Counted from the first letter of the stretch, positions 5,278 to 32,731 are shown. The stretch is DNA of 64,000 nucleotides from Pyrinomonadaceae bacterium (GCA_030841085.1 JAVEDP010000004.1:124001-188000), one strand, 5' to 3'. The notes: generated by a model from the sequence alone, not told the origin. Numbers and translations are program-made.

Positions 5278-5299
5278 CCGCGCCGAACTGTCGAGTCCG

Positions 5300-5430
5300 G
5301 TTACGTAAATCTCCTGACACGACTGGCTCGTTAACTGTTGCAAATATTAGGAGCGGTCCTGTCCGTTTCAGATCAAGCTCGTTACGTAATTCTCCTGACA
5401 GCGCGCACACGTTACCTAAATCTCCTGACA
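5300..5430 (-). repeat. Left-border cluster of three 20-bp repeats
   Basis: Copies read GTTACGTAAATCTCCTGACA (5300-5319), GTTACGTAATTCTCCTGACA (5381-5400) and GTTACCTAAATCTCCTGACA (5411-5430). All have the same orientation, with the TGT...tip facing right. The last two are exactly 30 bp apart. Several similar sites in one orientation ending in ACA are typical of transposase-binding arrays at the ends of IS21-like or Tn7-like elements. Assignment to a family is inference. Confidence 0.7.
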
Positions 5431-15500: not shown

Positions 15501-17648
15501 GTAAGCTCCTGGTTTATTCGCCCCTAACTGACGTATTAGATCTTGATTCGGCGTTTTGCAAGATATTCGCAGAACAAAGCAGAATCGTTTTAGCAGTTCC
15601 GCCTCATTGTCAAAAAGCCTATCGCCCAATTCAGTAAGGAAACTATATGGGTCGTCACTGAGCAGTACCGCTGAAATCGTTTCGTCCTGCCAATATCTTT
15701 GAAGATTCGGATTTGTCAGTATGCTGAGAATGAGCGCCTTCACATCATCGCCAAGCCGCAGCTTCTGATAGAGCCACAAACGGAAAGCACGATTCATTGC
15801 TGGCTCGTCGCCTACTGCGGCAAGGAACTTGGGTACGTCATCAAAAGACTGTTGATAAATATCCTCAATGTATTGTTCAAGTGCCCAGTCTTCAAGAACA
15901 TCGTGCGCAGGGCTTACCAGTCCCCTCGAATGTTCTCGTCTCACTAAGTCGTCTTCTTCAAGTTTTAGTACGGCTTCAGAATCGAAATCTCTTTCGGGCA
16001 CTCCATATACCATCCGTCTAGCTCTGGCTACGGCCATGTCCACAAATGTCTGCCTTCGCTTTAATGGCAGGCCGCCTGTTCGGACCTGCTCTTTCGCAAT
16101 GACATCCCTCCAGACGGCGGCGCGAAACTCTTTTTCTCCCTGATCAGCCGAGAATTCGGTTCCCGCTTCAGTGACTCGGTAAGCCAATTCCGCAAAAAAC
16201 GGATTATGAAGTAACGGTTTTAGTGACGGATTTGCGGCGAAGGCCATTAAAGGTCCAAGGCTTTCGCACAGACGTTGGATCTCGCTATCGTTGAAGTTAG
16301 TGATCGGCATCGACGTGTGGCTAAGTCCCGCCGGTTGGAAGTAGTTAAAGACTATTTGTTGGTACGCATAGTCGCGACCCGTTGCGACAACTGTCCAACC
16401 AGGATGCGTTTTGAGGAACTGAAGTAAATCAGTAAAGGCTGACGAATTCTGCAACTCCAACAATTTCTCAATCGATTCGAGCAGTAAATATCTCTTGGGC
16501 ATTAACGCAAAGCCGGCCTCAAGATCGCGAATTGAGCTACCTAAACCGATCGACGAAAAGACGTTGTCGAGGTGTGGCTGATCTAGATCTTCCGTTCTGA
16601 GACAAAATACCGGCGCTCGACCTTGCATATAATCAAAGAACTCGCGCACAAGAGTCGATTTTCCCGCCCCACGGCTTCCATTAATCAAAACAAAGGTAGA
16701 TCGCTCGCTTGCATCTAGTAGTTTGGCAAGAAGTTCGGACCTCGTGACATGAACGCCACCAATCGAAGTTCTGATACCGTTGACGATGTAGTCGCCGTGA
16801 TCTTTAAGCTTTCTTAGGTCTGAATCCCATTGAGAGCGCCTCGGATCGAACGCCTCGCGAATTTCGCGCGGCAATGTTTCCAGAGTAATAGTTCCAGCAC
16901 TCTGATTGGCGGACTGAACGGCATCGACTATTTGCGACCAAACACTCGCTGGGTTTTGGTTGGATGATTGCCCAATTAATGACTGAAGCAGCGATAGCGT
17001 GCCCCCGTTTTCCGTATCCAAGTCATATCCAAGCAGGTGATATGATCTTAGGAACTCCCAGAGTTGTTTATCAGAGACGTTCTGCCCGCCATTTGCGACA
17101 GTTAAATCCTTTCTGAAGATCTCCAGTTTTCCTTTTTTTGTTCTACCGCCTACGCGATTCACCTTATCTAGGAAGTCTCTTTCGTCTTGTGAGCATCTTG
17201 CCCATTCAAAGAGGACGCGCACATGATTGATATCCATCGCGCTTAAGGGCCCTGTGACAAGCGCTATCGCATCAGTGCCGGCCGTGAACACAGTTGGATC
17301 GTTAAAGTCATTCCAAGCGGCCCCTATTGCTTTAGCGAAATTCTCGTCAGTCTCGGTAAAACTGATTTCATGCTTGATTTGAGCGAGAAGTCTTGCTTCG
17401 CGATCCGAGACGGGATCTTTGGCATAAACAATGAAGTCATCCGTTCTGAAGCCCGCATACGCGCCTTGTAGTTTGAGCTTGGTAATCGGCCACGATGGAA
17501 GACATGGTGATACGCGACCCGTAAGCAGAAGGGTCGTGAAGGCAGCTTGAACGCGCGTTTCAAAATTTGCCCCGCCCTGACCGGTAGAGAATGGGTTAGT
17601 CGCTTGTGGTATCGCTTGTGGTGTCGCTTGTGGTGATGTCTTACCCAC
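12504..17648 (-). CDS. Giant STAND-like P-loop NTPase with N-terminal PD-(D/E)XK-like domain
   Basis: A 1714-aa protein starting at a GTG with AGAGGAA upstream. After a short PQAT tandem repeat (residues 6-17), residues 25-150 look like a Cap4/DUF4297-type nuclease: 'GGANFETRV', Asp70-Asp71 in 'TDDFIVYA' and Gln90-Ile-Lys92 in 'LLAQIKHEI'. A P-loop follows ('NGSRGAGKST', about 323-332) with a Walker-B-like 'YLLLESIEKL' (387-396), a sensor-like 'VVATGRDY', and a STAND-type 'SPAHDVLEDWALEQYI' (579-594). The remaining 1100 residues are helical, as expected of a sensor scaffold. The layout of nuclease, NTPase and long sensor recalls Avs proteins, but I cannot assign it to a named Avs type. Confidence 0.8.
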   Translation of the reverse strand: MGKTSPQATPQAIPQATNPFSTGQGGANFETRVQAAFTTLLLTGRVSPCLPSWPITKLKLQGAYAGFRTDDFIVYAKDPVSDREARLLAQIKHEISFTETDENFAKAIGAAWNDFNDPTVFTAGTDAIALVTGPLSAMDINHVRVLFEWARCSQDERDFLDKVNRVGGRTKKGKLEIFRKDLTVANGGQNVSDKQLWEFLRSYHLLGYDLDTENGGTLSLLQSLIGQSSNQNPASVWSQIVDAVQSANQSAGTITLETLPREIREAFDPRRSQWDSDLRKLKDHGDYIVNGIRTSIGGVHVTRSELLAKLLDASERSTFVLINGSRGAGKSTLVREFFDYMQGRAPVFCLRTEDLDQPHLDNVFSSIGLGSSIRDLEAGFALMPKRYLLLESIEKLLELQNSSAFTDLLQFLKTHPGWTVVATGRDYAYQQIVFNYFQPAGLSHTSMPITNFNDSEIQRLCESLGPLMAFAANPSLKPLLHNPFFAELAYRVTEAGTEFSADQGEKEFRAAVWRDVIAKEQVRTGGLPLKRRQTFVDMAVARARRMVYGVPERDFDSEAVLKLEEDDLVRREHSRGLVSPAHDVLEDWALEQYIEDIYQQSFDDVPKFLAAVGDEPAMNRAFRLWLYQKLRLGDDVKALILSILTNPNLQRYWQDETISAVLLSDDPYSFLTELGDRLFDNEAELLKRFCFVLRISCKTPNQDLIRQLGANKPGAYLFLQPFGSGWSAIVRFLFENKEHLPDGLTAHAVAVLEEWSSMIHIEADMPEAAREAGLLALSLLTPLKDSYRDEGKHLTKLLSVIIKTVPAIRDEFEELLNSDVFAKRARRPHYVDKFCKMALGTFDTVFLCKTVPDTVVKLALQEFFVDESEDDPHEMWHLDVEHCFGLHAYKHEFFPASGAKGPFQHLLRFHPQKGLDFTLELLNRAGDKYAHSNLDSEDRNTTILRNPRSTSGEEIEIVLDDQTSVKQCCSGRLWVAYRGFSVVPYLLQSALMALENWLISLAEQPSLRESVEWAFDHILRNSNSVMTTGILASLAAGFPKLLGKAASPLLRCPALYGIDMARTLREHGGNETDWFSSPLQDDPLAKLYTAERRTAALRPWRQEHLETLLTRLQFGDLRTEALAVVDELRAKAPATENWRFRFYRIDTRDWKATEDRENKRIIFESQPLEADLEKLQQESQEIKALHERFMRMYVWTGKAFHREKPDQEYFSTWNDALEEAKSLAEIIKQKSVGDLSKLYIGSVVKAAAIFLRDHSSEMTEADASWCADTVVDVVLSNVDSDDSLVAADKTDFDGAASAASVLSILFDLAKSDEEKRFAKQLIAIALTHKNASVRDSTATGIREHLWQQDRDFAQSCVCGAVEFACLQLENSHRIRRSSCPLSEADEDRAANVASWVNDFRQRLASEGISLTESDLEGLQFQTHSPWYMLTPCLMVPDGSTDPIHVALLSRMLSLFFETEESTRKHRGERIDDDIWIHSEPRLNFTKRFAEYLVALWASGSRLFADQLISGCESAPEFIDSLQLNIALVTENNNNKELYWVFWEALSTKVQGIAISTTDQDARYHGETNSRKLIRGMLLADAPWQKLDYERQDIALGKDLILQFVENSGKNVDVFEALASLMYHFPRVFFQSGVHILAKHQSEVGGTRLLSGVNSAFYLEGSIQRFLQIDETGPLTREMHQSCFTLLDALVETASSRAYYLREQLIHSRRILQAA

Positions 17649-17700: not shown

Positions 17701-18549
17701 CTACCCAATTCCTTGATGGATGAGCAGCAAGCGCTCCGCTAATATTCCCATAGTCTCAACAGCCATCCTGGCTTCCGCCTCTGTTACTGTAGGAAGCCAA
17801 GGGCGACCGTGACCTGTCCCTTGCTTATTTCTGAGTTGATTAATGCCACAAGCGAGTTCGTACATCGCTCGTTCAACCCGCTTGTTAGCAGGTTCCCCTG
17901 GTTGGACTGCCTCTTGCGGCGTTGCGAGGCCCAAATCGATAAAGACCCTGCCAAGCAATGTAGGAAAGTTGGAAGTGCTTGAATATGCGCCGTATCTCTG
18001 CTCGAGAACGTGCGCGGCTACAGCTTCCAATAGATCTTTTCCTGTCCCAGCAAGAAGCGCCGCATCCTGTACGCCGCGCTTGGCACGTTGGACATAAGCC
18101 ATTAATGCCTTCGTGAGTGCCATCCCCGAAAGGTTTTCGAGGACCTTAGAGCTCAGGTGACCATCGCTGGTTAACTCAAAACCTTCGTCATTCATAGCAG
18201 CAGCAAGATTCGCTATTGCCTCACTCCCGACGTAATTGGGCGAGGTCTCGCGAAAGCCACCATGCCCGCGGACAAGCGAGATCAATGAACTCACAAGGTC
18301 CCCTCCGGCTCCGTTATCATTTTCAAGCGCCCAGTTGAGAGTGGCTCTAATTCTTTTTGCTTTTCCTACGGTCTGTCCGTGGCAAATTGGATCGCCTTCC
18401 GTGAGATTCGCGCGTCGGATGTGAAACTCAAGGTCGGAATGACTCGGATCCCTACGAGCACATTGTGCGTCGTCAACCAATTGTGAGACGGCGACAATAA
18501 TCGCGTCAGTCACCGGCGCTGTCGTCTTTTTCATTTCAACTGCAACCAT
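17701..18549 (-). CDS. Abi_C (abortive infection C-terminus) domain protein
   Basis: A 282-aa cytosolic protein preceded by an ideal AGGAGG ribosome site. The C-terminal part carries 'INQLRNKQGTGHGR' (R240 to R249), the signature of the Abi_C family. That domain is HEPN-related and found in phage abortive-infection proteins. The N-terminal 130 residues are not recognised. It stands 30 nt downstream of the LexA-like repressor and 52 nt upstream of the giant P-loop gene, in one direction. It is therefore probably the first effector or sensor gene of the repressor-controlled operon. Confidence 0.8.
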   Translation of the reverse strand: MVAVEMKKTTAPVTDAIIVAVSQLVDDAQCARRDPSHSDLEFHIRRANLTEGDPICHGQTVGKAKRIRATLNWALENDNGAGGDLVSSLISLVRGHGGFRETSPNYVGSEAIANLAAAMNDEGFELTSDGHLSSKVLENLSGMALTKALMAYVQRAKRGVQDAALLAGTGKDLLEAVAAHVLEQRYGAYSSTSNFPTLLGRVFIDLGLATPQEAVQPGEPANKRVERAMYELACGINQLRNKQGTGHGRPWLPTVTEAEARMAVETMGILAERLLLIHQGIG

Positions 18550-18579: not shown

Positions 18580-19203
18580 TTAGTCCAAACCGGAAATCGT
18601 CGTAAGCACGAGCCCTTGGATTTGGAACTCCTTTGTAAGAATGATCGGACGGTGACGACTCGAATTCGACCGTGGTTTCAGAACTACCGTATTCTGCGAT
18701 CGATGGAACTCCTTTATGGTGGCTTCATCATCGATCAAAGCCACAACGACCTTTCCGCTATCGGCCGTCGACTGTTGCCTCACCAGTACTAAATCTCCGT
18801 CGGAAATCCCGGCTTGGTCCATCGAGTCGCCTTTGGCTCTTAACAAAAAATATCGATGTCCAGGCTTAGCCAGTTCGGTCGAGACGGGAATCATTGTTTC
18901 GACATTCTCCTCTGCAAGCAGCGGCATGCCGCAGGCTGCAGTACCAACAAGTGGAACCAGAATCGTACGAGCGTAACTATTGGTTTCCGACAACTCTTTG
19001 AGCAGCCGTAAACGCCCGTCGTTCTTGCGCTCAATGCGACCAGCCTTAATTAACTTCTCAACAATTAACGCCGCCGACCGCGGCGAGCTGTACCCAAGAT
19101 CCTTCTGGATATCTCTGATCGATGGAGATTTCGAATGTATTAGAGAGTTACGGATGAAGCGAAGAGCCTGAGTTTCATTGGGAGAAAGCTGGTGTTTTGG
19201 CAT
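18580..19203 (-). CDS. LexA-like self-cleaving transcriptional repressor (S24 family)
   Basis: A 207-aa repressor with an N-terminal winged helix-turn-helix (about 1-70, LexA type: 'SPNETQALRFI', 'PSIRDIQKDLGYSS') and a C-terminal S24 autoprotease. The cleavage site is Cys91-Gly92 in 'LVGTAACGMPLLAEENVE'. The catalytic Ser127 lies in 'AKGDSMDQAGISDGDLVLV' and Lys164 in 'IDDEATIKEF'. A Cys-Gly scissile bond occurs in UmuD; LexA usually has Ala-Gly. It heads the minus-strand defence-like operon, and a palindrome overlaps its start. By family analogy, RecA-stimulated cleavage would relieve repression after DNA damage. It is probably a local regulator, not the host LexA. Confidence 0.9.
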   Translation of the reverse strand: MPKHQLSPNETQALRFIRNSLIHSKSPSIRDIQKDLGYSSPRSAALIVEKLIKAGRIERKNDGRLRLLKELSETNSYARTILVPLVGTAACGMPLLAEENVETMIPVSTELAKPGHRYFLLRAKGDSMDQAGISDGDLVLVRQQSTADSGKVVVALIDDEATIKEFHRSQNTVVLKPRSNSSRHRPIILTKEFQIQGLVLTTISGLD

Positions 19204-19771: not shown

Positions 19772-20011
19772 TTGACTAAGTCTGTCCACACGAAGAACTA
19801 CGCGCGTTTCTTACAGCTTTTGGTTGAAGCCCGTAAAAACGCCGGCGTAACTCAAGAAGACGTGGCTGAACGGCTAAACCGTCATCAATCTTTCGTGTCG
19901 AAGTATGAGAACGGCGAGAGAAGAGTGGACCTGATTGAATTTCTGGATCTTGCAGAGGCCATAGGGTTCGATCCTGTTGTGTTCATGCGAAAGATTCAGA
20001 AATCTCGGTAA
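19772..20011 (+). CDS. XRE-family helix-turn-helix regulator
   Basis: A 79-aa protein made almost entirely of one HTH_3 domain. 'GVTQEDVAERLNRHQSFVSKYENGER' contains the Q-x3-A-x3-N-x4-V-S-x2-E pattern of Cro/XRE proteins, and 'DLIEFLDLAEAIGFDP' follows. The start is a TTG at 19772 with only a weak GGTG upstream, so the start is uncertain. It diverges from the small membrane gene, and two palindromes lie in the gap. It is likely a repressor of the divergent promoters. Confidence 0.8.
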   Translation: MTKSVHTKNYARFLQLLVEARKNAGVTQEDVAERLNRHQSFVSKYENGERRVDLIEFLDLAEAIGFDPVVFMRKIQKSR

Positions 20012-20708: not shown

Positions 20709-21305
20709 ATGTCCGAGGCAACTACCAAAGGCTTTTACAAAGGCCTTCATACAGGCAACCTTCAAACATACGAGCTCATTTGGCAGGAGGGCTCAAGAGT
20801 CATCCCTGCTCTAAAAAGGATGAAATTCGAGGACGCTGAGGATACATGGCACGATTGTTGGCTGAACCTGCTTTACACAAGGTGTGCGGACTACGACCCC
20901 AGGAAGGGCACTTTACCAAAGTGGGTTATGAATAAAGCCATACTCCTAGCTCGCACTCGCCGACGAAAGAAACTGCGTTCGAAAACCGTATCCATTGAAG
21001 AGACTGGAGAGTTATCCAACGAAGATTCCCTCATCGGAGAGAATAAAGGCGGTAACCAAGAGAAGTTGGCTCTGCTCGAGCAGGGAAAAGCAGCGCTCAG
21101 CGAGCGCGACCGGATAGTCATTTCGTTAAAATTCGACGAAGGTCTTGAGTCGCCTGCAATGGCAGAAAGACTTGGAACCACAAGCGTCGCGGTGCGGAAG
21201 CGCCTATCTCGCGCAGTGCGACGACTCTCGGTAGAAATAGGAAGGCTGAATAAGGATGAACTACGAAGACCAACTAAAGAACCTGCAGGAGCAGATTCGT
21301 CGTGA
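20709..21305 (+). CDS. RNA polymerase sigma-70-like (ECF) factor
   Basis: About 198 aa from the ATG at 20709, which has GGTGGAG upstream. An in-frame TTG at 20664 would add 15 residues. Residues about 30-100 resemble sigma region 2 ('FEDAEDTWHDCWLNLLYTRCADYDPRKGTLPKWVMNKA' style, with D-x3-D and the WV segment). Region 4 follows ('LSERDRIVISLKFDEGLESPAMAERLGTTSVAVRKRLSRAVRRL'), a clear helix-turn-helix. It overlaps the next HTH gene by 50 nt and precedes the tns genes. A sigma factor leading a Tn7-like operon is unusual. It may direct transcription of the transposition genes. Confidence 0.8.
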   Translation: MSEATTKGFYKGLHTGNLQTYELIWQEGSRVIPALKRMKFEDAEDTWHDCWLNLLYTRCADYDPRKGTLPKWVMNKAILLARTRRRKKLRSKTVSIEETGELSNEDSLIGENKGGNQEKLALLEQGKAALSERDRIVISLKFDEGLESPAMAERLGTTSVAVRKRLSRAVRRLSVEIGRLNKDELRRPTKEPAGADSS

Positions 21306-21753
21306 GCGTGAAGAAGAGAATTCATTTTCCAAAACCAGACCTCGATCATTTGAGAGCCCCACTGACCTAGTTTCATTTCTTAGAAATATGCCAGTTACTA
21401 AAGTTGCTGAAGTCACAACCATTTCCTCCTTCCTCCGCCGATTCAGAAGTGACTTGGGCCTTAACCAGGATGATGTGGCGACCGCACTTGAGCTAGCCCC
21501 TGATATTCTTAAAAACATAGAATCGAACGATTGCCTACCGTGGACAATACCTCCGCGAGCAATGACACTGATTCTTAGCACCTATCGGGTTCACATGGAC
21601 GCTGTGCTCTTTCTTACTCAGAATTCCTATGAGATCGCTCGCGTTTCCAAGCAGATTTCCGACCTAACTGCAGAAGCCCAAAGGCTGTCAGCTTGGTTAG
21701 CTAACATCAACTCAGAACTCCACGCGTGCGGTGAAATGGCATTGCTAAAGTAA
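21256..21753 (+). CDS. Helix-turn-helix protein overlapping the sigma factor, possible sigma partner
   Basis: A 165-aa protein with a charged coiled N-terminus ('EDQLKNLQEQIRREREEE'), an XRE-like HTH at about residues 55-95 ('ISSFLRRFRSDLGLNQDDVA') and a helical C-terminus with heptad-like spacing. Its start lies inside the sigma gene, a 50-nt overlap in another frame, which couples their translation. It could be a co-regulator or anti-sigma-type partner; no anti-sigma domain is recognised. Confidence 0.6.
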   Translation: MNYEDQLKNLQEQIRREREEENSFSKTRPRSFESPTDLVSFLRNMPVTKVAEVTTISSFLRRFRSDLGLNQDDVATALELAPDILKNIESNDCLPWTIPPRAMTLILSTYRVHMDAVLFLTQNSYEIARVSKQISDLTAEAQRLSAWLANINSELHACGEMALLK

Positions 21754-21810
21754 TACCGGTAAAGTCAACAAAGCCACCACCTTAGGGTATTCCTTCTCTT
21801 CCCACTTACA

Positions 21811-21934
21811 GGTTCCCTGTCACACCCCGCCTATATTAGTAGGGGCATATCTTTGTTAATGTCCCCAAACAGGATTCCCATGACTCTCTTGCCCAACCTC
21901 AAGGTTCCCACTCTATTACTAGGGGAGATATTTG
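21811..21934 (+). repeat. Spaced repeats upstream of the tnsA-like gene
   Basis: Two similar blocks, CTATATTAGTAGGGGCATAT (from 21831) and CTCTATTACTAGGGGAGATA (from 21911), are exactly 80 bp apart. Each has a GGTTCCC upstream (21811-21817 and 21903-21909), and a third GGATTCCC lies at 21872-21879. The second block also supplies the AGGGGAGA ribosome site of the next gene. They could be promoter elements for the neighbouring sigma factor or transposase-binding sites. Confidence 0.45.
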
Positions 21935-22611
21935 ATGAGAGTCGAATCAAACGAACAGATCCTTTGTCAATACAAACCTGTATGGTCACTGCCTTCTAGC
22001 AAATTTGGTAACAATCGCTGGATAGTATTCAGTATCCGTCTGCTGCGGCTCATAATCCTCTATTCCGATTTGGAATACGATCATTGGGTACTAGTCGAGT
22101 CAAATTCTCGAATCGTTTTGTATTGCGAACAGCCGTTGCGGGTGCGCGTAAAGCTTCCATCAGGTTTCGTAACACCGTTTTTGATATGTGGCTGCGGTTT
22201 GATTCAGGTGAAGAGGAATTCCGTGAAATCAAATATCGTGAACAGCTAACCCAACCTAAAACAAAGCGTCAAATCGAAGCTCAAAAGTTGTGGTGTAGCC
22301 TCAAGCCAACACAGCATGAGGTTTTCGATCAGTATCGGATACGCTCAAATCCACGCTACCTCCACAGTTGGAAATTCATACTGCGCTGCCTGGCTGCAAC
22401 TCACAGCAGCAATCTTAGATCGATCAGCGATCGAGTTTCCCAACTGCTGGCTGATGGCCCAAGAACATTGGGTCAAATAGAGGCTGCTTTTTCATCCCCC
22501 GAACAATCGCTCGTTCGACCAGCAGTATTTCGGCTACTCCATAGTGGCGACGCGACTGCCCCACTTGGAACTCACGACCTGACAAATGCGCTGCCCATCG
22601 AGATTAAATAG
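21935..22611 (+). pseudogene. tnsA: TnsA-like transposon endonuclease, interrupted by a frameshift
   Basis: TnsA cuts the 5' ends of Tn7-like elements so that they move by cut-and-paste. From the ATG at 21935 (AGGGGAGA upstream) one frame encodes a TnsA-type N-terminus: 'LPSSKFGNNRW', 'LEYDHWVLVESNSRIVLYCE' and 'QPLRVRVKLPSG'. It then runs out at 22249. The continuation, 'NTVFDMWLRFDSGEEEFREI' with the catalytic D...E-x-K (REIKY) and the C-terminal helices, lies in the -1 frame and reaches the stop at 22611. The change falls near 22160-22170 and equals one missing base. A base-call error, a real mutation or a programmed -1 shift are all possible. Its stop overlaps the start of tnsB. Confidence 0.7.
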
Positions 22612-24542
22612 TGATGACACACTTCAAATTCGACCGTGATAGCCTCGATCCCGAATTGAAGGATCTGGCCTCATGGCCAAGCGTCAAGACGGATGGCTGG
22701 ACTGACAAACAGCGGGAACTCTTCGCGAGACTTGAAGGGGCCATTCGCGCCTACTTCGCCGGCGGCGTCGTAAAACTAATTTGCGAGAAGTACAAGATTA
22801 CGCGCCAGGAATTCCATCGATACCTAAAGCGCTGCCTGGCCACCCATCCGGACGGCCGAATATATGGTTGGCGCGGGATCATGCCGTACGCTCGACAGAA
22901 AACTTACGTGCGAACAAAGCCGGTGCGAATCCAGTCGAGCACACAAGCGGGAGGTCGCTCGGGCGCATTCTCACAACTGCTGGATCTTTATCCCGATCTG
23001 GCAATTGGAATTCAGAAACTTCTCTTGAAGCAAACCGGAGACGAGACAATCCCCGAACCGCGAATTCCCTTGATGGCAATTCTCAAGTGGCTCTTGAGTG
23101 CTTGTAAGAAAAAAGGCCTGACCGCTAAGGACTATCCATTTTGCACCCGGTCTCTCGGTCGCACAGCGTTGTGGAGGTATTTGAAGGCATTAATCAATCT
23201 CAACCCGGGAGCGGCAGCAAAAGGTAGATACGGTAAAGACGCAACGAGAAGATGGCGCGTTAGTGGTCATGGGCCTTCTACGGAAAAGGTCACCATGCCT
23301 TTCCAGCAAGGCCAATTTGACGGCCACCGAATAGACGCGCGCCTTATCATCCTTATCCGACACACCCACGGCGGCTTCATAAAACTCCATCTTCAGCGTC
23401 TATGGTTGCTGGCGATCATTGATGTTTTCACTCGGGCAATTCTTGGTTATCACATCTCTCTCAACGCGGAATACAACGCCGAAGATGTCTTGCAGTGCGT
23501 CAAGAAAGCAATCACTCCATGGAAACCGATGACACTAAAGATCCCCGGTCTTCAGTATGCGCATGGCGCAGGTTTTCCGTCTGGTGTCGTACCTAAGTTG
23601 GCATGGGTCCTCTTTGATGAGTTTTGCTATGACAACGCCAAGTCCAACCTGGCAAAACGAGTTCTTAAAAAACTTGTGTCTGTAGTAGGTTGCGCCATCA
23701 ATCCAGGTCCCGTTGAGACTCCGGAGCGTCGGGGAATCATCGAGCGATGGTTTGCAATACTCGAAGAAGCAGGCTACCACCGATTCCCATCAACCACTGG
23801 CAGCAGTCCCCAAGATCCTCGCCGCGGTGACCCCGAGGCCGCCGCTGAGAGTTTGGAGATATCGCTGGACCACCTATACGAAATTACTGACCTAGTCATC
23901 GCAAAATACAACGCGACGCCCCATTCCGGAATTGGCTACAAGTCACCGTTGGATCTGATGAAACTTTATGCAGATGATGAAAATAGTCTTATGAGAACCA
24001 TTCCCGAAGATCAACGCGCCTCGCTTGGATTACTCAATGTTGAATTTGCTCGAGCGGTAAGAGGAAATATCAAATCCGGCAGACGGCCCTATGTCGATTG
24101 CGAAGGGGCTAGGTACCGGAATGACGTGCTGGCGCGCAGTCCTGAGCTGATCGGTAAAAAACTGCGCCTGGTCATGGATCCAGAAGATCCTCGTTCAGTA
24201 ATTGCGTACCTGCCCGACGGCGCCGAATTCGGCGTGCTTACCGCGAATGGCTTTTGGGGAATACGACCGCACACTCTTGAGATGCGAAGAGCGATCCTTT
24301 CTCTCAAGCGGGAAAGACTCATTTATCTCACCGACAACCAAGATCCGATACCTGTGTATCTGGAATACTTAGCCAACGAGAAAAAAGGCAAGGCAACAGC
24401 TCGAGCGCTGGCGAAAGCGCAAAAAGCGAAATACGAGTACGCGATTCCAACCAAGACCGCAACTTTCGCGAACCACAATGATGTTCTTGAAGCAGATCTT
24501 CCAGTGGATCAGGCCCACCCCACGAGAACGATTACGTACTGA
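22611..24542 (+). CDS. tnsB: TnsB/TniA-like DDE transposase
   Basis: A 643-aa transposase that binds the element ends and joins their 3' strands to target DNA. It has N-terminal helical DNA-binding segments and a retroviral-integrase-type core with Asp237 ('QFDGHR'), Asp341 ('CYDNA') and Glu378 ('RRGIIERW'), a D-D-37-E arrangement. A Mu-type C-terminal beta-barrel follows ('ARYRNDVLA...GKKLRLVMDPEDPRSVIAY'). The GTG at 22611 overlaps the tnsA stop (TAGTG); an ATG follows at 22614. tnsC starts 11 nt downstream. The reading frame is intact. Confidence 0.92.
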   Translation: MMTHFKFDRDSLDPELKDLASWPSVKTDGWTDKQRELFARLEGAIRAYFAGGVVKLICEKYKITRQEFHRYLKRCLATHPDGRIYGWRGIMPYARQKTYVRTKPVRIQSSTQAGGRSGAFSQLLDLYPDLAIGIQKLLLKQTGDETIPEPRIPLMAILKWLLSACKKKGLTAKDYPFCTRSLGRTALWRYLKALINLNPGAAAKGRYGKDATRRWRVSGHGPSTEKVTMPFQQGQFDGHRIDARLIILIRHTHGGFIKLHLQRLWLLAIIDVFTRAILGYHISLNAEYNAEDVLQCVKKAITPWKPMTLKIPGLQYAHGAGFPSGVVPKLAWVLFDEFCYDNAKSNLAKRVLKKLVSVVGCAINPGPVETPERRGIIERWFAILEEAGYHRFPSTTGSSPQDPRRGDPEAAAESLEISLDHLYEITDLVIAKYNATPHSGIGYKSPLDLMKLYADDENSLMRTIPEDQRASLGLLNVEFARAVRGNIKSGRRPYVDCEGARYRNDVLARSPELIGKKLRLVMDPEDPRSVIAYLPDGAEFGVLTANGFWGIRPHTLEMRRAILSLKRERLIYLTDNQDPIPVYLEYLANEKKGKATARALAKAQKAKYEYAIPTKTATFANHNDVLEADLPVDQAHPTRTITY

Positions 24543-24553
24543 GGAGTCCAGAT

Positions 24554-25543
24554 TTGCGCAATCCAAAGACTTCACAACTAAAGCGACCAAGGGTTGAGCC
24601 AGGCGCACATCCAATTCAAACGACTCGGTACCTTATATCCACTCCGACAATTCAAACCCTCTTAGCTGCAGTGTATCTCTGGATCGAGAATCGAGTGCCG
24701 GGAGGAATGGTCTATGGGAAACCACGTTTCGGAAAGACCCACGCCATCAAGTATCTCTCGGTATTGCTGATTGAAAAATTCGGTGTTGCCTTGCCGGTAA
24801 TCACTTTGTTGTGCCTTGACCACACCCGACCCAGTGAAAGCGTCTTCTTTGAAGACCTGCTCCGCGCAGCTGGCCATGCGTTCTGTTCCAGTGGGACGGC
24901 CACCGCAAAGCGTCAACGCCTAAACGAATATCTTATTGAGAGGGTCGAACGTAGCGGCCACGACAAGCTGATACTCTTCATCGACGAGGCGCAGAAATTG
25001 CACGAACAACACTACAAATGGCTAATAGATTTACACAATGAACTCGACCGTAACAGCATAGCCTTAATAGTTCTGCTCGTTGGCCAAGAGGAGCTAGTTC
25101 ATCAGTTCTCAGCTTTTCAGCTAACCAAGAAAACTCAAATCATCGGCCGATTTATGGTCCATCAACTTCGCTTTCAAGGATTACGGTCGGAAAAGGACAT
25201 GAGGCATTGTTTAGCCAACTATGATTCCGGGTCCGAATATCCTCCGGGAAGTGGCTTCGCTTTTACTCGCTATTATTTCCCCGCAGCCTTCGAATCCGGC
25301 CTCAGACTTAAGGATTCCGCAGCCACGTTATGGCAGGCGTTTCGCGTGGTGAGAGAGGAAGCTGAACTCCCAGTTACTCGAGAGATTCCAATGCAATACT
25401 TTTGTCGGACCGTTGAATATGTGTTGACTCGATTCGGAACTCTTGAAGACCTGCCTATTGAATTGTCGTTGGCCCAATGGAAGGAAGCCATACGAAGATC
25501 CGGCTACGCCGATGCTGAGCGTTATGTTGTCGACTCTCAATAG
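24554..25543 (+). CDS. tnsC: TnsC/TniB-like AAA ATPase, transposition regulator
   Basis: A 329-aa AAA+ protein that links the target adaptor to the transposase. Walker A is 'YGKPRFGKT' (54-62) and Walker B is 'LILFIDEAQ' (139-147). 'VLLVGQEEL' and 'QIIGRFMVHQL' follow, as in TniB/TnsC. The start is TTG 24554 with a perfect GAGGAG seven bases upstream that overlaps the tnsB stop region. Its stop is one base before the likely tniQ start. The tight tnsB-tnsC-tniQ order is standard for Tn7/Tn5053-like elements. Confidence 0.92.
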   Translation: MRNPKTSQLKRPRVEPGAHPIQTTRYLISTPTIQTLLAAVYLWIENRVPGGMVYGKPRFGKTHAIKYLSVLLIEKFGVALPVITLLCLDHTRPSESVFFEDLLRAAGHAFCSSGTATAKRQRLNEYLIERVERSGHDKLILFIDEAQKLHEQHYKWLIDLHNELDRNSIALIVLLVGQEELVHQFSAFQLTKKTQIIGRFMVHQLRFQGLRSEKDMRHCLANYDSGSEYPPGSGFAFTRYYFPAAFESGLRLKDSAATLWQAFRVVREEAELPVTREIPMQYFCRTVEYVLTRFGTLEDLPIELSLAQWKEAIRRSGYADAERYVVDSQ

Positions 25544-25544
25544 T

Positions 25545-26885
25545 ATGATCGTGAATCAAAACAATATCTGTTGGCGCCCAGATTGGTATAGACCCTACGA
25601 GTCGCTTTGGTCCTTACTGAAGAAAGTCGCCTATCTTAATGCGGCCTCGTACGCAGACATCCAGCAACTCGTCGGAAGGGTGAAGAGCGAGCGGAATTCG
25701 CCGCGCGGGGAAAAGCTGCGATGCGATCTCAATAGCTTCGCAGCAGTCGACAACGAAAAGCTGAAGAACCTTTTACTTATCGATTCGACAGCACTCCTGC
25801 AAACAACCGCGCTCGCATACATTAAACATGAAGAGTTAATAGTACTGACTAGTAATCAGCTGAGGTACTGCACAGACTGCCTGAAAGTCGGCTTTCATAG
25901 TGCAATTCATCAACTCCTATTTCTTTCCCAGTGTCCTATTCACAACAGCCCACTCGTTACACGTTGTCCTGAATGCGGAACCCTCGCGCCCCGATACACA
26001 GTTGCTTCGGTCACGGCCAGACGTCGGACGAATTGCGATAACTGTTTTGAATCATTCGCTGAAAAGTTTCGACTGAGAATAGCCGCATGCCTTAGCCATG
26101 ACTCTCAGAGCAGGGAATTGGCCGAACTTGGTTCTTGGTTAAACCAGCGATTGTCAGCCGGTTGGACCGAATACTACGCATTTACTGCCACCTTCTTCCG
26201 GAAGCCTTCAAAGTGCCGAAGCACCAAACTGCTCAGGCTACCAGGGTACTGGTCCCGTGCACTTCCTTTTAGTTCCAAGGCACTTGTGCAACTTCCTGAG
26301 CGTGAGAGTCACAACAGCTTATCGATCCCTGGTCAGGTGGGCTTAACTGAGACTCTAGCGAATGAATACGGCCAACTTGATCCGGATTTCGAGAAGGATT
26401 TACAAAGCGATTTCAGATCAATAAAGCGAAATCTTTTTAGGAGAGTTCTTCGACCTCACAAGCAATGTATTCGGAGATTACAAAAACACGTGTGTTGGAT
26501 CATCCCAGGACGATACTGGCGCGGCACGATCTGCGTAGCCGCGAATGCTTACTTGCTGTGGTTGATGAGATGCCAGAACACGAATGATCCCACCAACGTC
26601 TTTCGATCTCAAAAACTCAGGGTCTCTCCAATCGAAACGCACTCTGGTACACAGGGTCCACTTTCCAGATCGGCTGTTCGAAGAATCGTCGCCCTGAATT
26701 GGACCTCCTTGTTCTATGAGGCCCTGTTGGTGGCGTTCGGCCTGAATCGAAAAGGCTTGTACTCACTATGCCCCGCTTTGGTCCAAGGCGTTCGAAGACC
26801 TCACTGGCTAGTAGAACGGTCAAAAGACGAAGTTCAACCCTCCACTGGTGGATGCGCAATCGTTACATCGATCGAATCATTCTAG
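25545..26885 (+). CDS. tniQ: TniQ family target-selection protein
   Basis: Adaptor that recruits TnsC to the target site. The N-terminus 'PDWYRPYESLWSLLKKVAYL' and the zinc-binding block (CTDC, then SQCPIHNSPLV, then CPECG, about residues 108-150) are typical of TniQ/TnsD. From the ATG at 25545, one base after the tnsC stop, it is 446 aa; in-frame ATGs at 25512 and 25524 overlap tnsC. The remaining C-terminal region is Arg-rich and not recognised. Its size lies between short CRISPR-associated TniQ and TnsD, so it may bind a DNA site directly. The site is not identifiable here. Confidence 0.87.
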   Translation: MIVNQNNICWRPDWYRPYESLWSLLKKVAYLNAASYADIQQLVGRVKSERNSPRGEKLRCDLNSFAAVDNEKLKNLLLIDSTALLQTTALAYIKHEELIVLTSNQLRYCTDCLKVGFHSAIHQLLFLSQCPIHNSPLVTRCPECGTLAPRYTVASVTARRRTNCDNCFESFAEKFRLRIAACLSHDSQSRELAELGSWLNQRLSAGWTEYYAFTATFFRKPSKCRSTKLLRLPGYWSRALPFSSKALVQLPERESHNSLSIPGQVGLTETLANEYGQLDPDFEKDLQSDFRSIKRNLFRRVLRPHKQCIRRLQKHVCWIIPGRYWRGTICVAANAYLLWLMRCQNTNDPTNVFRSQKLRVSPIETHSGTQGPLSRSAVRRIVALNWTSLFYEALLVAFGLNRKGLYSLCPALVQGVRRPHWLVERSKDEVQPSTGGCAIVTSIESF

Positions 26886-27178: not shown

Positions 27179-28303
27179 ATGGACCCCGTAACAAGTTTCG
27201 TCCACCTAGCCCGAATTGCTCTTTCAGGTCGCCGTAGAGAGTTGGTCATGTTCCTCAGGCGCTCCTTGCCCTCTATTCGCGAAATGAAGCCTGAACTTGC
27301 GGCGGAAATCAATAAACTTCTCGAACTAACGTCGGCCGGGCCACTGCGCGCCAAAGCGGCCATGCCAGAACCGCTGCCGGTGGACCTTGATTCGCGGCTT
27401 GAATTGGTTCGTCATGAAGAACATCCGGAAATGGCGGTTGAGCCAACTTGGCCAAGCGAGATTCGTGACGAACTCAATCAATTCATTCTGGAACGTCAAC
27501 AAGAGGAGCATTTAGCTGCCGTCGGAGTGATGCCAACCCGGTCTTTGCTATTCGTGGGGCCACCGGGTGTTGGTAAAAGCCTAGCGGCACGTTACCTCGC
27601 TGTGCAGCTGCATCGACCCTTGCTCACCCTCGATCTAGCCGCGGTAATGAGCAGTTTTTTGGGTCGTACTGGAAACAACATCCGAGCCGTCCTAGATTAC
27701 GCTCGTCGAAGCTCTTCAATCTTGTTACTAGACGAATTTGATGCTATTGCCAAGCGTCGCGATGACTCTGCTGACGTCGGGGAGTTAAAACGGCTAGTGA
27801 CGGTATTGCTTCAAGCGATCGACGACTGGCCGCGCGAGGGCATACTGTTAGCTGCCACGAATCATCCTGATCTCTTAGATCCTGCGGTCTGGCGACGTTT
27901 TGAGCGGGTCATTCCATTTCCGCTCCCTTCCGCGAATGACATAGCCGCAGCAATACAGGTCGCTCTTCAAGACGATACAAACAGGGTATCTAAAACGACA
28001 ATCGAGATTTTGGCGGCACTCCTAGAGGGTCGATCCTTTGCGGACGTACGAAAAGTGATTCTCGGCGCTCGGCGCGAGGCACTTGTTAGTAAGCTTCCCA
28101 TTGATCAAGTTCTTACCGAGCGTGTGTCAAAATTACTAAATGGTCAGTCTAGGGCTCGACGTATTCAAACCGCGGTTTCGTTGCGACAGACGGGTCTGAC
28201 TGAGCGACATGTCTACGATCTTACAGGCGTTTCAAGAGATACGATCCGTCGTAGGACCAAGGTAGGCGGAAAGAGAATAAATTCTAATGGCAAGAAAGGA
28301 TAA
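27179..28303 (+). CDS. ietA: AAA+ ATPase of an IetAS-like defence pair
   Basis: A 374-aa AAA+ ATPase with an N-terminal helical part (1-90), Walker A 'GPPGVGKS' (127-134), Walker B 'LLLDEFD' (182-188), sensor 'LLAATNHPDLLDPAVWRRFER' region with arginine finger, and a C-terminal HTH-like tail ('TGLTERHVYDLTGVSRDTIR'). It overlaps the subtilisin-like gene by 17 nt. This ATPase-protease pairing is the architecture named IetAS, described as a plasmid-stability toxin/antitoxin-like pair and as an anti-phage system. By that analogy the ATPase controls the protease. No clear ribosome site precedes the ATG. Confidence 0.8.
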   Translation: MDPVTSFVHLARIALSGRRRELVMFLRRSLPSIREMKPELAAEINKLLELTSAGPLRAKAAMPEPLPVDLDSRLELVRHEEHPEMAVEPTWPSEIRDELNQFILERQQEEHLAAVGVMPTRSLLFVGPPGVGKSLAARYLAVQLHRPLLTLDLAAVMSSFLGRTGNNIRAVLDYARRSSSILLLDEFDAIAKRRDDSADVGELKRLVTVLLQAIDDWPREGILLAATNHPDLLDPAVWRRFERVIPFPLPSANDIAAAIQVALQDDTNRVSKTTIEILAALLEGRSFADVRKVILGARREALVSKLPIDQVLTERVSKLLNGQSRARRIQTAVSLRQTGLTERHVYDLTGVSRDTIRRRTKVGGKRINSNGKKG

Positions 28304-30530
28304 TTTTCTTCTAGGCAATGGAGAGCGACTAACCGGTTCCATAGATGTGCCAAAAGGCGGCGGGGATAAAAACCCTCCGTATCCCTTCATAGAAGCCCGC
28401 AACCGTATTAGTAGTCGCGCACTCGCTGTAATCGAACGTGTCACAGAGCTACCAGCGGACGCATGCCCAGGCGATGAAGTCGTGCTCTCGCTCACGATGC
28501 ACCCCCGCTATATTTCAAAATCGGATTTTCCCAACACACTACTCAGATCTCTCGGGCTACGAGCGGTGGGAAGTCGCGCAAAGAGGGTGACGCCAGAGAA
28601 GTGGGGAATTGAAAAACATCCAACGGAGGCAATCGGCGAGGAAATTTTCGCAGCCGGGCCTAAGGACCGTGTTCTGCAACTCCGGAGAATTGTTGGCGCA
28701 TTCTCTTCGACCTCCGCTGCCGCCGACGATCTCTCACACATCGAGGATTTGGCTTATCCTCCGGCGGATGCCAAGCTCAAAAATATTAGTAAGACAAAAC
28801 GGGATGAGGCTAGATGGCTAGAAGTTGTGCTGCACAATCGGAGCGACGTTGATGTGTTTTCGGCCTTTACCAAGTTTGCGGAGCGGTTACGAGCTGGTGT
28901 CAACACTCAGAGACGGCGTGATGTGGGTGGACTGACCTTCGTTCCGGTTTCTGCGACTGTGGGAGCGGCAAACCAACTTGCGAATTTTTCGTTTCTTCGC
29001 GTCGCTCGCTCAATGCCCACCTTGCGTCCTTTGAACCCGACTGTGCTTCGACTAAGTGCAAGCGCGACAGTAAACCTTCCAACGACTGATTCAGTGACAG
29101 ATTCTTGTCGAGCGCTAATTCTTGATGGAGGCCTTCCTTCAAGTGCGCGTACAAGTCTACGCCGCTGGGTTAATCTCATTGATGCGCCTTCGGTAGGTCC
29201 TCGTCATTCTGATCTTGAGGCGCATGGATTAGCGGTTACCAGCGCGTTTCTTTTTGGGCCTATTTCCGATCCAAATGATTTGCAGAGGCCCATATGCGGC
29301 GCAGACCATGTTCGCGTGCTTGACTCCAGCGTCCTTTCATCTGCTGACCCTTACTACTTCGATGTACTCGATAGAATCTTGGCATACTTCGACTCGCATG
29401 GTCACGATTACGCGCTTATCAATATTAGTATCGGGCCCAATCTTCCAACCGATGACGACGATGTAACATTGTGGACCGCGGCCTTGGACTCACGCCTTGC
29501 CTCCGGCGAGTGGGTCGTCACCGTAGCTGCTGGCAATGACGGAGATTTGGACCCGACGGACGGCCTTAATCGAATTCAGCCACCTGCCGATGCGGTAAAC
29601 GTCTTGACGGTAGGCGCGGCCGACAGCTCTTCTGCTATATGGTCACGCGCCTCGTATAGTTGTCCGGGACCCGGCAGAAGTCCCGGTTTTGTGAAGCCGG
29701 ATGGCCTGATCTTCGGTGGTTCTCAACAAGAACCGTTCCCGGTGCTTTCTTCTAACGGCGGCATCAGCAACATTCAGGGTACGAGCGTCGCCTCTCCTTT
29801 TGCCCTACGGTCAAGCTCTACGATCAAGGCTCAACTTGGCGATTCGCTAAACGCCTTGGCTATTCGGTCACTGATGATTCACCGCGCTACCCCTGGCAAC
29901 GGTTTGCCGCTTTCCGAGACGGGGTGGGGGCGCTTTGAAGATGATCCGCAGAAGCTTATTACCTGCGAGGATCACGAAGTGTTAGTGATCTATCAGGGCG
30001 AGCTACCGATCGGCGAGCATCTTAGGGCACCTATACCGTTGCCGAAAACTGTACGAGGAAAAGTTCACATAGAAGCTACCTTGGTGATTTCCACCGACGT
30101 CGATCCGAGTCATGCTTCTGCATATACGAGAAGCGGATTGGAGGTCTTTTTCCGGCCTCATGCTGACAAGTACACAACGAATCCAGACGGTACGATTTCA
30201 TTTCATCCCAAGACGTCCACCTTTTTCTCGCCGTCTAACATGTACGGAGCTTCGGAGTATTTGATGCGAGAGAATGGTCACAAATGGGAGCCCTGTATTC
30301 GCGGAGGCGTAACAAAGATTCCAAAGTCTTTGAAGGCACCGTGCTTCGACATTTACAACCATCGAAGAGCAGATGGCGTTGCTACCGCATCCACGACAAA
30401 AACAAAGTACGCCTTAGTTGTAACGGTGAGCGCAAAGCGGGTCCGCGACTTATACGGACAAGTCGTCCGCGCATATTCGCATGTGCTCATACCGCTGAGA
30501 CCGCGCGTTCGTATAGAAGTACCACGCTGA
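28287..30530 (+). CDS. ietS: Subtilisin-like (S8) serine protease of an IetAS-like defence pair
   Basis: A 747-aa cytosolic protein without signal peptide. Catalytic triad candidates are Asp280 ('LILDGGL'), His313 ('EAHGLAV') and Ser500 ('GTSVASPFA'), with the oxyanion Asn417 in 'VAAGNDG'. About 250 residues precede the protease domain and about 220 beta-rich residues follow it. The start overlaps the ATPase gene by 17 nt. S8 proteases next to AAA ATPases are recognised as defence (IetAS) components. The substrate is unknown. The downstream SEFIR protein could be a partner or a target; that is inference. Confidence 0.87.
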   Translation: MARKDNFLLGNGERLTGSIDVPKGGGDKNPPYPFIEARNRISSRALAVIERVTELPADACPGDEVVLSLTMHPRYISKSDFPNTLLRSLGLRAVGSRAKRVTPEKWGIEKHPTEAIGEEIFAAGPKDRVLQLRRIVGAFSSTSAAADDLSHIEDLAYPPADAKLKNISKTKRDEARWLEVVLHNRSDVDVFSAFTKFAERLRAGVNTQRRRDVGGLTFVPVSATVGAANQLANFSFLRVARSMPTLRPLNPTVLRLSASATVNLPTTDSVTDSCRALILDGGLPSSARTSLRRWVNLIDAPSVGPRHSDLEAHGLAVTSAFLFGPISDPNDLQRPICGADHVRVLDSSVLSSADPYYFDVLDRILAYFDSHGHDYALINISIGPNLPTDDDDVTLWTAALDSRLASGEWVVTVAAGNDGDLDPTDGLNRIQPPADAVNVLTVGAADSSSAIWSRASYSCPGPGRSPGFVKPDGLIFGGSQQEPFPVLSSNGGISNIQGTSVASPFALRSSSTIKAQLGDSLNALAIRSLMIHRATPGNGLPLSETGWGRFEDDPQKLITCEDHEVLVIYQGELPIGEHLRAPIPLPKTVRGKVHIEATLVISTDVDPSHASAYTRSGLEVFFRPHADKYTTNPDGTISFHPKTSTFFSPSNMYGASEYLMRENGHKWEPCIRGGVTKIPKSLKAPCFDIYNHRRADGVATASTTKTKYALVVTVSAKRVRDLYGQVVRAYSHVLIPLRPRVRIEVPR

Positions 30531-30617
30531 CGCTGAGATTTGTGCCCATAGCGCATTGGCTGACTCTTCTTGTTTGACAGTTGGCGGCATTGGACGCCGC
30601 TCTCGAGAGATTTCAAA

Positions 30618-31583
30618 ATGATGAGTGAAATAAAAACACCGAGAGCCTTTATTTCCTATTCGTGGGACAACGACGAACACAGAGACTGGGTGCGCAACCT
30701 GGCGACTAGAATGAGGCAGGATGGCGTAGATTTACTGCTCGACCAGTGGGGCCTGGCACCAGGTGATCAGTTACCAGAATTCATGGAGCATTCGGTCCGA
30801 GATCACGATTTCGTCCTCATCATCTGTACGCCGCGCTACAAACAGAAATCAGATGCGCGCGTTGGCGGTGTAGGTTACGAGGGCCACATCATGACGGCCG
30901 AGCTTATGACAGCACGCAACGACCGGAAGTTTATCCCTATTCTCCGGCACGCCGTTTGGGAAGACGCCGCGCCCTCATGGCTAGCGGGCAAGTACTACAT
31001 TGATCTCTCCGAATCTAATCGTTTCGAAACAAACTATCAGGACTTACTAACCACAGTACACGGGCAGAGATCGCAAGCCCCTCCCGTTGGTAAACCGCCT
31101 AAGATAAACAAGCCGAACCTCTCGGTTAAAAGGGCAACTACGCGGCCACCCGATCAAAATCAAGTAGACTCGTCCGGACCCATCAAAATTAAAGGCATAT
31201 TAACTCACGCCATAACTAAGCCACGCATGGATGGAACACGTGGTTCAGGGCTCTACGCCATTCCTTTTCAACTTTCAAGGCGCCCATCAGCCGACTGGGC
31301 TGCCTGGCTTGTCGAAACATGGAATCACCCCCCACAGTGGACAACTATGCACAGACCCGGCATCGCCCTGGTTGAAGGCGACCGCATTATCCTTGATGGG
31401 ACGACAATAGAAGAAGTCGAGAAGTATCATCATGAGACATTGCTGGCAGTGCTTGACCGAGTCAACCAACTAGCGGCCGAGCACGAGGAGCGGCAACGGC
31501 GTGCGGCCGAGGTAGCACTTCAGCGAAAGCAGCAGCACGAAGCCATCGTCAGCGATGTAGCTAAAAGAATGAAATTCGATTGA
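30618..31583 (+). CDS. SEFIR/TIR-domain protein with C-terminal coiled coil
   Basis: About 321 aa from the ATG at 30618 (GAGAG upstream; an earlier in-frame start at 30570 adds unconserved residues). The N-terminal 140 residues form a SEFIR-type TIR domain: 'RAFISYSWDNDEHRDWVRNL', 'VDLLLDQWGLAPGDQLPEFM', 'VLIICTPRY' and 'GGVGYEGHIMTAEL'. A Pro-rich linker (about 155-200) and a beta-containing middle part follow. The end is a charged coiled coil (about 265-315). Bacterial SEFIR proteins act in anti-phage defence, probably by NAD depletion. It follows the ietS gene by 87 nt on the same strand and may be a third component of that module or an independent system. Confidence 0.82.
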   Translation: MMSEIKTPRAFISYSWDNDEHRDWVRNLATRMRQDGVDLLLDQWGLAPGDQLPEFMEHSVRDHDFVLIICTPRYKQKSDARVGGVGYEGHIMTAELMTARNDRKFIPILRHAVWEDAAPSWLAGKYYIDLSESNRFETNYQDLLTTVHGQRSQAPPVGKPPKINKPNLSVKRATTRPPDQNQVDSSGPIKIKGILTHAITKPRMDGTRGSGLYAIPFQLSRRPSADWAAWLVETWNHPPQWTTMHRPGIALVEGDRIILDGTTIEEVEKYHHETLLAVLDRVNQLAAEHEERQRRAAEVALQRKQQHEAIVSDVAKRMKFD

Positions 31584-31997
31584 AACTCACTAGGTACAAT
31601 TTCAATCTAACCCTGCAGTCCGGCGAGTCAGAAACGCCCACACACCCTCCAACCGACCCGAAGGTCAGTTTAAGCATTGCGTAATTCTCATGACACAACA
31701 ACCAAAGCACCGTGTCATAACTTTTAGGTAACAGTTGTCAGGACTTTTACGTAACCCGACTTGTCGCAAGCCCTTAGCTTACCTCAAAAGCGTAGCCTGT
31801 TCCAACATAATATATATTATCAGACGCAACGAATATGGGCGTTTAGTTGTCCACTACGCGGCTTCAATGCCTTCGATGTTTTGGGATTTGTACAGGCTTC
31901 CCTATGTTTGCCTGGCCACCTTCTCGATTCGGTTCCGGCGTCGGCCTCTGATCGGAGCCGAAGTTTGGGCGGGGTTTGCGAGCGTTGGGCGGGTTGG
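31584..31997. other. Intergenic region at the right border of the island
   Basis: No gene is supported. It contains the right-border repeats (31676-31755). The rest, to 31997, shows no tRNA, known attachment site or terminator that I can recognise, so the chromosomal junction lies somewhere in this stretch. Confidence 0.5.
31676..31755. repeat. Right-border cluster of the 20-bp repeat, in both orientations
   Basis: One copy reads ATTGCGTAATTCTCATGACA (31676-31695), in the same orientation as the left cluster. After 17 bp come two opposite copies in tandem, TGTCATAACTTTTAGGTAAC (31713-31732) and TGTCAGGACTTTTACGTAAC (31736-31755), 23 bp apart. The last matches the reverse complement of the first left copy at 18 of 20 positions. 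Confidence 0.7.
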
Positions 31998-32729
31998 TTA
32001 AGAGCACTCGATGATGCCGTAGTTTAGCAGTCGCTTAAGCGTGACTTGGTCGTGCCGTTGGCTTAGCAAGGTGCTGACCGACTGCGGTATCTCAAGTGTG
32101 GCCCATAGATCAATCTCGGCTGCCGTAGGCGCATAGCAAAACTGCTCAAAGCCGGGACCAAGGAACACTGCAGTAATTTCGGATGACAAAGGCGGTAGCG
32201 GCTCGCGTTTCTGCAGCGACTCTAACAGGCGCTGTGGCTCGGCATAAAACTCTACCAATCCAGCGTAACGGCCACGGCGTAAGCTGCAACCAGGGTTGCT
32301 GAGAGGCGCAGCATCCGGCGGGGTGAAATTGTCTTTTCCCTCACCTACTCGCAAAGTAATTTGCTCAAGCTGACAGATACTAAATTCGTGCGAAGGATTG
32401 ATCAGCCTGCGGCTAATGAATTCGAGGAACGACCCGGCCTCGGCATCGAAGAACGACTGGTTTCCGGCACCCGAGTCAATCCATTCATCGAGCAACTGCT
32501 GCCTCTCCTTCTCCGGGAGAAAAGAAAGAGTTAAATGCGCCCCCTTTGCAGCGCGCCCGATGCACCACGATCGCTGAATGCTCCTGCTGAATAAAAACCC
32601 GGGAGTTGTTTGCACAGCTTGGAGGTATTGGCTCTCGCGCGTGTCGAGATTAAGGCCATCAAGAGGAGCAGTGCCCTGCTGAGCGCCGACCAATCGCGCG
32701 AGCCCGGTTTGGAAATCAACGAGTGCCAT
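31998..32729 (-). CDS. Partner protein of the MNIO (DUF692) enzyme, unknown fold
   Basis: A 243-aa soluble protein. It starts 2 nt after the stop of the DUF692 gene on the same strand. In MNIO clusters this position usually holds a DUF2063/HvfC/BufC-type partner that presents the peptide to the enzyme. The N-terminus 'LVDFQTGLARLVG' and the C-terminal 'PTAAEIDLWATLEI...LKRLLNYGIIE' are compatible with such a role, but I cannot confirm the DUF2063 family by eye. It has no signal peptide and no catalytic motif. Confidence 0.6.
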   Translation of the reverse strand: MALVDFQTGLARLVGAQQGTAPLDGLNLDTRESQYLQAVQTTPGFLFSRSIQRSWCIGRAAKGAHLTLSFLPEKERQQLLDEWIDSGAGNQSFFDAEAGSFLEFISRRLINPSHEFSICQLEQITLRVGEGKDNFTPPDAAPLSNPGCSLRRGRYAGLVEFYAEPQRLLESLQKREPLPPLSSEITAVFLGPGFEQFCYAPTAAEIDLWATLEIPQSVSTLLSQRHDQVTLKRLLNYGIIECS

Positions 32730-32731
32730 AC

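Follow-up and report, generated by a model that had tools for sequence, protein, structure and literature searches.

The window analysed here, a 64,000-nt (64-kb) stretch of DNA from a Pyrinomonadaceae bacterium (GCA_030841085.1, JAVEDP010000004.1:124001-188000), carries a Tn7-like transposon with a gene for an ECF-type sigma factor and an overlapping gene for a helix-turn-helix (HTH) protein upstream of tnsA-B-C-tniQ. In our judgement there is an even chance that the two genes form an uncommon regulatory module which belongs to this defence-carrying Tn7-like transposon and whose target would be the tns genes, the cargo or both. The host genome (4.69 Mb) is assigned to the Blastocatellia (Acidobacteriota) from its relative UBA11740, which falls in the same family. 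The features are as follows (window coordinates, strand).

5289-5293, plus: candidate target duplication TGTCG, left copy
5294-31761, unstranded: Tn7-like transposon, 26,468 bp, with 5-bp duplication, inverted ends and end-site clusters; upstream of metK
5300-5430, unstranded: left end, three near-identical 20-nt sites (GTTACSTAAWTCTCCTGACA) at 5300, 5381 and 5411, presumed TnsB sites
12504-17648, minus: cargo Avs4 (PADLOC E 9e-165)
17701-18549, minus: cargo Abi_C-domain protein (PF14355 E 2e-14)
18580-19203, minus: LexA-like S24 repressor (PF00717 E 4e-28, PF01726)
19772-20011, plus: small XRE regulator gene (PF13560/PF01381), 5' of the sigma gene
20709-21305, plus: ECF-type sigma-70 factor gene, 198 aa (PF08281, TIGR02937)
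21256-21753, plus: XRE-like HTH protein gene, 165 aa (weak HTH_19/HTH_25; homologue in L025/L050)
21754-21934, plus: HTH-tnsA gap with two imperfect direct repeats, candidate operator/promoter of tnsA
21935-22249, plus: tnsA N-terminal part, frame 2 (alignment to the intact UBA11740 TnsA, L014; homology ends at about 22180)
22084-22611, plus: tnsA C-terminal part, frame 1 (PF08722 E 6e-5, under cut-off; homology begins at about 22170 in the L014 alignment)
22611-24542, plus: tnsB, DDE transposase, 643 aa (weak rve and Mu-transpos_C matches; homologues)
24554-25543, plus: tnsC, AAA ATPase, 329 aa (AAA_22 49.9 bits; L014 homologue E 1e-115)
25545-26885, plus: tniQ, 446 aa (L014 homologue E 1e-49; conserved Cys/His pattern)
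27179-30530, plus: cargo defence pair IetA (AAA) and IetS (subtilase) (PADLOC E 7e-84 and E 6e-36)
30570-31583, plus: cargo bSEFIR defence protein (PADLOC E 8e-73)
31713-31755, unstranded: right end, inverted copies of the left-end 20-nt site at 31713 and 31736
31762-31766, plus: candidate target duplication TGTCG, right copy

The element was assigned to the Tn7-like transposons by its TnsB, TnsC and TniQ together, its inverted end sites (three left, two right) and its 5-bp duplication. TGTCG directly abuts the inverted ends, which are identical at 17 of 20 positions. It was picked among several 5-bp matches in the searched range as the only one that coincides with good inverted ends; a TG...CA terminus combined with other duplications was also tried and set aside on the same ground. 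The ends defined by the duplication read AGTC...GACT, the exact terminal base being unproven; TGT...ACA termini are common, not universal, in Tn7-like transposons. Because the ends map to 5294 and 31761, the sigma/HTH pair lies inside the element. Repeats found just 5' of tnsA in plasmid relatives had initially suggested an end between the HTH gene and tnsA, which would place the pair outside, but the end sites lie instead at 5.3 and 31.7 kb. The locus is real beyond chance, since homologues support the gene calls and the element ends were located independently.

In two genomes of the same genus (L040 and L042) metK adjoins the sequence that is found to the right of the element in the window, and no element is present. 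This comparison is consistent with an insertion between metK and that right-hand flank. Two further genes, at 31998-33565, are found in the stretch that separates the element from conserved sequence at 34251 and are absent there in L040 and L042; by eye we take them to be of the DUF692/MNIO and DUF2063 types, and they are probably another gain. The closest same-genus genome (L034, G113:C213, 1-1160; metK 96% identical) has an IS110-like transposase gene upstream of metK. The region upstream of metK is possibly an insertion hotspot.

Besides the cargo given above, the element encodes a Mrr-like nuclease. The gene for the LexA-like S24 repressor (18580-19203) lies upstream of the Abi_C and Avs4 genes on the same strand, and damage-responsive control of the defence cargo by this repressor is possible. 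No genes of a CRISPR system could be recognised around the tns operon of the window.

The first-pass annotation had placed the sigma and HTH genes before tnsA-B-C-tniQ in the same direction and with a 50-nt overlap, and these open reading frames (ORFs) and the overlap proved exact (21256-21305). The sigma ORF matches PF08281 (region 4) with 36.5 bits, above the Pfam cut-off of 25.7, and TIGR02937 (ECF) over residues 38-176 with 41.9 bits, one bit short of the cut-off of 42.9; no match to Pfam region 2 was found in it. No anti-sigma gene was recognised beside the sigma gene, and its HTH partner matches no anti-sigma family. A cognate anti-sigma gene is frequent but not universal for ECF sigma factors, so that its absence is not decisive. 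The HTH ORF matches HTH_19 and HTH_25 at E 3e-4, under the Pfam cut-offs, and its AlphaFold model (pLDDT 58) has helical tails predicted at low confidence.

Homologous operons with the same gene order in other genomes show that tnsB, tnsC and tniQ are real. The Pfam matches of TnsB are under cut-off, and its identification rests on these operons (46-48% identity to UBA11740, 39% to a Klebsiella grimontii plasmid); the Cys/His pattern of TniQ is conserved in an alignment of five TniQ proteins. The earlier description of tnsA-B-C-tniQ thus holds for the last three genes but not for tnsA, which is split over two frames. Relative to the intact UBA11740 TnsA, the assembled gene loses its frame once, between 'LPSGFV' and 'NTVFDMW', at about 22170-22180. 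As the cause we prefer mutation or an error of assembly to programmed frameshifting, because no slippery heptamer was seen at the junction. The short spacing that had been described is likewise true inside tnsA-B-C-tniQ (−1 nt for tnsA/tnsB, 11 nt for tnsB-tnsC and 1 nt for tnsC-tniQ) but not between the HTH stop codon and the tnsA ATG, which are 181 nt apart. Given this gap, a separate transcription unit for the tns genes is likely.

The gap contains two repeats, at about 21796-21855 (about 60 nt) and about 21886-21934 (about 49 nt), the latter ending at the tnsA start. Both contain GGTTCC and the core 12-mer TATTASTAGGGG, which in the 64-kb window is confined to the tnsA leader. The alignment score of the repeats was reached by none of 500 shuffles. 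No sigma-70 consensus promoter was seen in the 181-nt gap, the predicted RNA fold of the tnsA leader was no better than those of shuffles, and no Rfam family or structured RNA was found across 5000-34500.

A survey of tnsB homologues for upstream sigma/HTH pairs, which the first-pass annotation had proposed, went against a general association. UBA11740 (L014), whose tnsABC-tniQ has the nearest TnsB (46-48%), has no pair in the 9 kb upstream, nor do seven plasmid relatives (TnsB 35-44%) from Klebsiella, Paraburkholderia, Janthinobacterium and Paenibacillus. Searches with the TnsA family and TnsB added 20 Tn7-like loci from the class, and in 19 of these no gene for an ECF sigma factor lay in the stretch scanned, the exception being genome G130. 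The ECF profile used on these loci picks up ECF factors that had been withheld from it at E 1e-35 or lower; at L011, L085, L098 and L099 the stretch scanned covered under 3 kb on the upstream side of tnsA, and L012 and L014 extend L011. The absence of the pair from the tns operons of close relatives, named beforehand as evidence against the link, is therefore what was found, and the pair is not a conserved leader of tns operons. Among viral contigs there were no relatives of TnsB, the sigma factor or the HTH protein; plasmids gave no HTH relative and one remote sigma, and phages no sigma relative.

Two candidates were rejected. The sigma gene at L103 is an ordinary ECF gene followed by a gene resembling a zinc-finger anti-sigma factor, and the apparent weak sigma match beside tnsA in G113 (L091) proved to be a small HTH protein. 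At this last locus (G113:C181, 361-4738) another Tn7-like tnsA adjoins glmS, the classical Tn7 attachment gene, and has small HTH genes beside it. On plasmid pNY3A of K. grimontii (L026, 2695-12520), a tnsABC-tniQ of the same subfamily lies directly 3' of a CBASS-like set consisting of a nucleotidyltransferase, a ThiF-family protein, JAB and SAVED.

When the HTH protein was searched reciprocally against 158 genomes of the class, exactly two loci came up at E<=1e-3, one in the window and one in G130, with per-genome E values of 4e-6 and 5e-6. Weaker matches came from 18 other genomes; they represent generic HTH cores that have no ECF gene beside them, and a 316-aa ORF in L121 that matches both profiles weakly is not a pair. 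In G130 an ECF-type gene lies directly 5' of the HTH gene with an 11-nt overlap, within a 16.1-kb Tn7-like element (L050, G130:C5, 522-16671). The ends of this element are TGATTCGGAACAATAAAGTCG and its inverted copy, with the exact 5-bp duplication AGAGG at both sides, and it sits between recF-like sequence and dnaN, both presumed by eye from position and sequence. Its TnsB belongs to a different subfamily from that of the window, and the two elements are only distantly related. In G130 the pair is oriented away from tns and stands 3.2 kb from tnsA, three genes intervening; 630 nt downstream of it, on the same strand, comes an Eco57I-type restriction-modification gene. Because the element covers about 0.2% of the G130 genome, chance co-location of the pair with it is unlikely, on two cases judged after the fact. 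Both occurrences among the 158 genomes are thus inside Tn7-like elements; the annotation had taken a pair found mainly without tns genes as a sign against linkage, and this was not seen. Its interpretation is partly supported, by the place of the pair inside the element and by the recurrence in G130.

The HTH proteins of the two pairs show weak homology (24-27%). The sigma proteins have generic ECF similarity and nothing beyond, so that the case for a common origin of the whole pair is carried by the HTH protein and the gene order; a sigma tree of the pair members was uninformative, with long branches. The shared promoter motif that the annotation had expected upstream was also sought; no shared bipartite motif beyond shuffles was found in eight upstream regions of both elements. 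Because no common promoter motif was detected, a direct link between the sigma factor and tns is unproven.

If the pair is a regulatory module, its sigma factor, identified as ECF-type from the family match, would recruit RNA polymerase to a single promoter, or a small number of promoters, within the element. The HTH protein, whose 50-nt overlap suggests translational coupling, would set the timing as a DNA-binding repressor or co-factor; it may plausibly act on the observed paired repeats of about 50-60 nt directly 5' of tnsA, as their presumed binding protein. The two would act together on element promoters, the tnsA leader among them. Transcription of tnsA-B-C-tniQ would begin on its own within the 181-nt gap; these genes would be subject to such a switch without having to be co-transcribed with the pair. 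The module would be optional for the Tn7-like machinery, because most related elements do not have the pair. That the pair forms, more specifically, an ECF sigma and coupled HTH switch of the transposon's own that toggles its transposase genes seems to us somewhat improbable.

The arrangement may also be read as dedicated control, in which a single operon begins with the sigma and HTH genes and continues into tns, and the sigma factor specifically activates tns under some stress, gating transposition. The pair is on the same strand as tns and directly upstream of it with no intervening gene, and the paired repeats lie in the tnsA leader. However, the tns operons of relatives have no pair, the pair of G130 is not co-oriented with tns, 181 nt separate the HTH gene from tnsA, and no shared promoter motif was found. 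We consider this reading unlikely; no evidence was obtained for the stress gating that had been suggested, and dedicated sigma control of transposition is possible. It is rather doubtful that the pair instead controls the defence cargo, or belongs to a cargo system, and stands beside tnsA by chance. The element of the window is rich in defence genes and the G130 pair precedes the same-strand Eco57I-type gene, but the genes downstream of the window pair are tns and not cargo, and the cargo operons differ between the elements, with no motif found in common with the regions upstream of them.

A decaying element, with the pair as a passenger of no current function, is very improbable: tnsA is frameshifted as assembled and there is a single copy in the genome, but the sigma, HTH, tnsB, tnsC and tniQ frames are all open and the lone tnsA frameshift could be an assembly error. 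The reading as a rare regulatory module of the element draws on the position of the pair inside the mapped ends, the recurrence of the overlapping order in G130, the significant repeats of the tnsA leader, the 181-nt gap that contrasts with the tight tns packing, and the precedent of HTH regulators encoded by CRISPR-associated transposons. Against it stand the lack of a shared motif and of a promoter seen in the gap, the Eco57I-type gene adjoining the G130 pair, the merely generic likeness of the two sigma proteins, the weak HTH similarity and the number of cases (n=2).

Tn7-like elements carry anti-phage defences between bacteria. Like the defence-cargo transposons described by Benler et al. 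2021 (PMC8649781), the window element has TnsA/B/C and TniQ, end sites, a 5-bp duplication and anti-phage cargo; of the two, only the window element has an ECF-type sigma/HTH pair noted. The word 'sigma' is absent from the main text of that large cargo survey, and in a target-selector survey (PMC10293859) the occurrences listed name a reagent supplier. No published report of an ECF sigma factor in a Tn7-like transposon, or of a transposon-borne one controlling tns, was found among the titles and abstracts listed by searches of open-licence papers. Transposase silencing is known mainly for CRISPR-associated Tn7-like elements, via HTH regulators of transposition. A sigma factor encoded by the element would, if true, be a switch of another type, which might act on transposition as well as on cargo genes, and sigma/HTH gating of tns would be a transcriptional layer undescribed for the Tn7-like class in the literature searched.

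CRISPR-associated transposons (CASTs) encode the HTH regulators RtaC/RtbC (Xre, type I-F3) and CvkR (MerR-type, type V-K) (PMC11406308). Like the HTH protein of the window, these are regulators encoded by Tn7-like elements, but no sigma factor accompanies them. A further likeness, by description, is to Tn916, whose Orf7 is sigma-like. In Tn916 orf7 up-regulates xis/int (PMC7288454), and orf7/orf8, like the window pair in its proposed role, are a small element-encoded activator beside a second regulator of mobility genes. Unlike the Tn7-like element of the window, Tn916 is a conjugative element with a tyrosine recombinase. The tnsABC-tniQ operons of UBA11740 and K. grimontii pNY3A share the subfamily and gene order of the window and have no sigma/HTH genes upstream, whereas the G130 element differs in its TnsB subfamily and in the divergent position of its pair, 3.2 kb off, and has, as in the window, overlapping sigma and HTH genes inside it.
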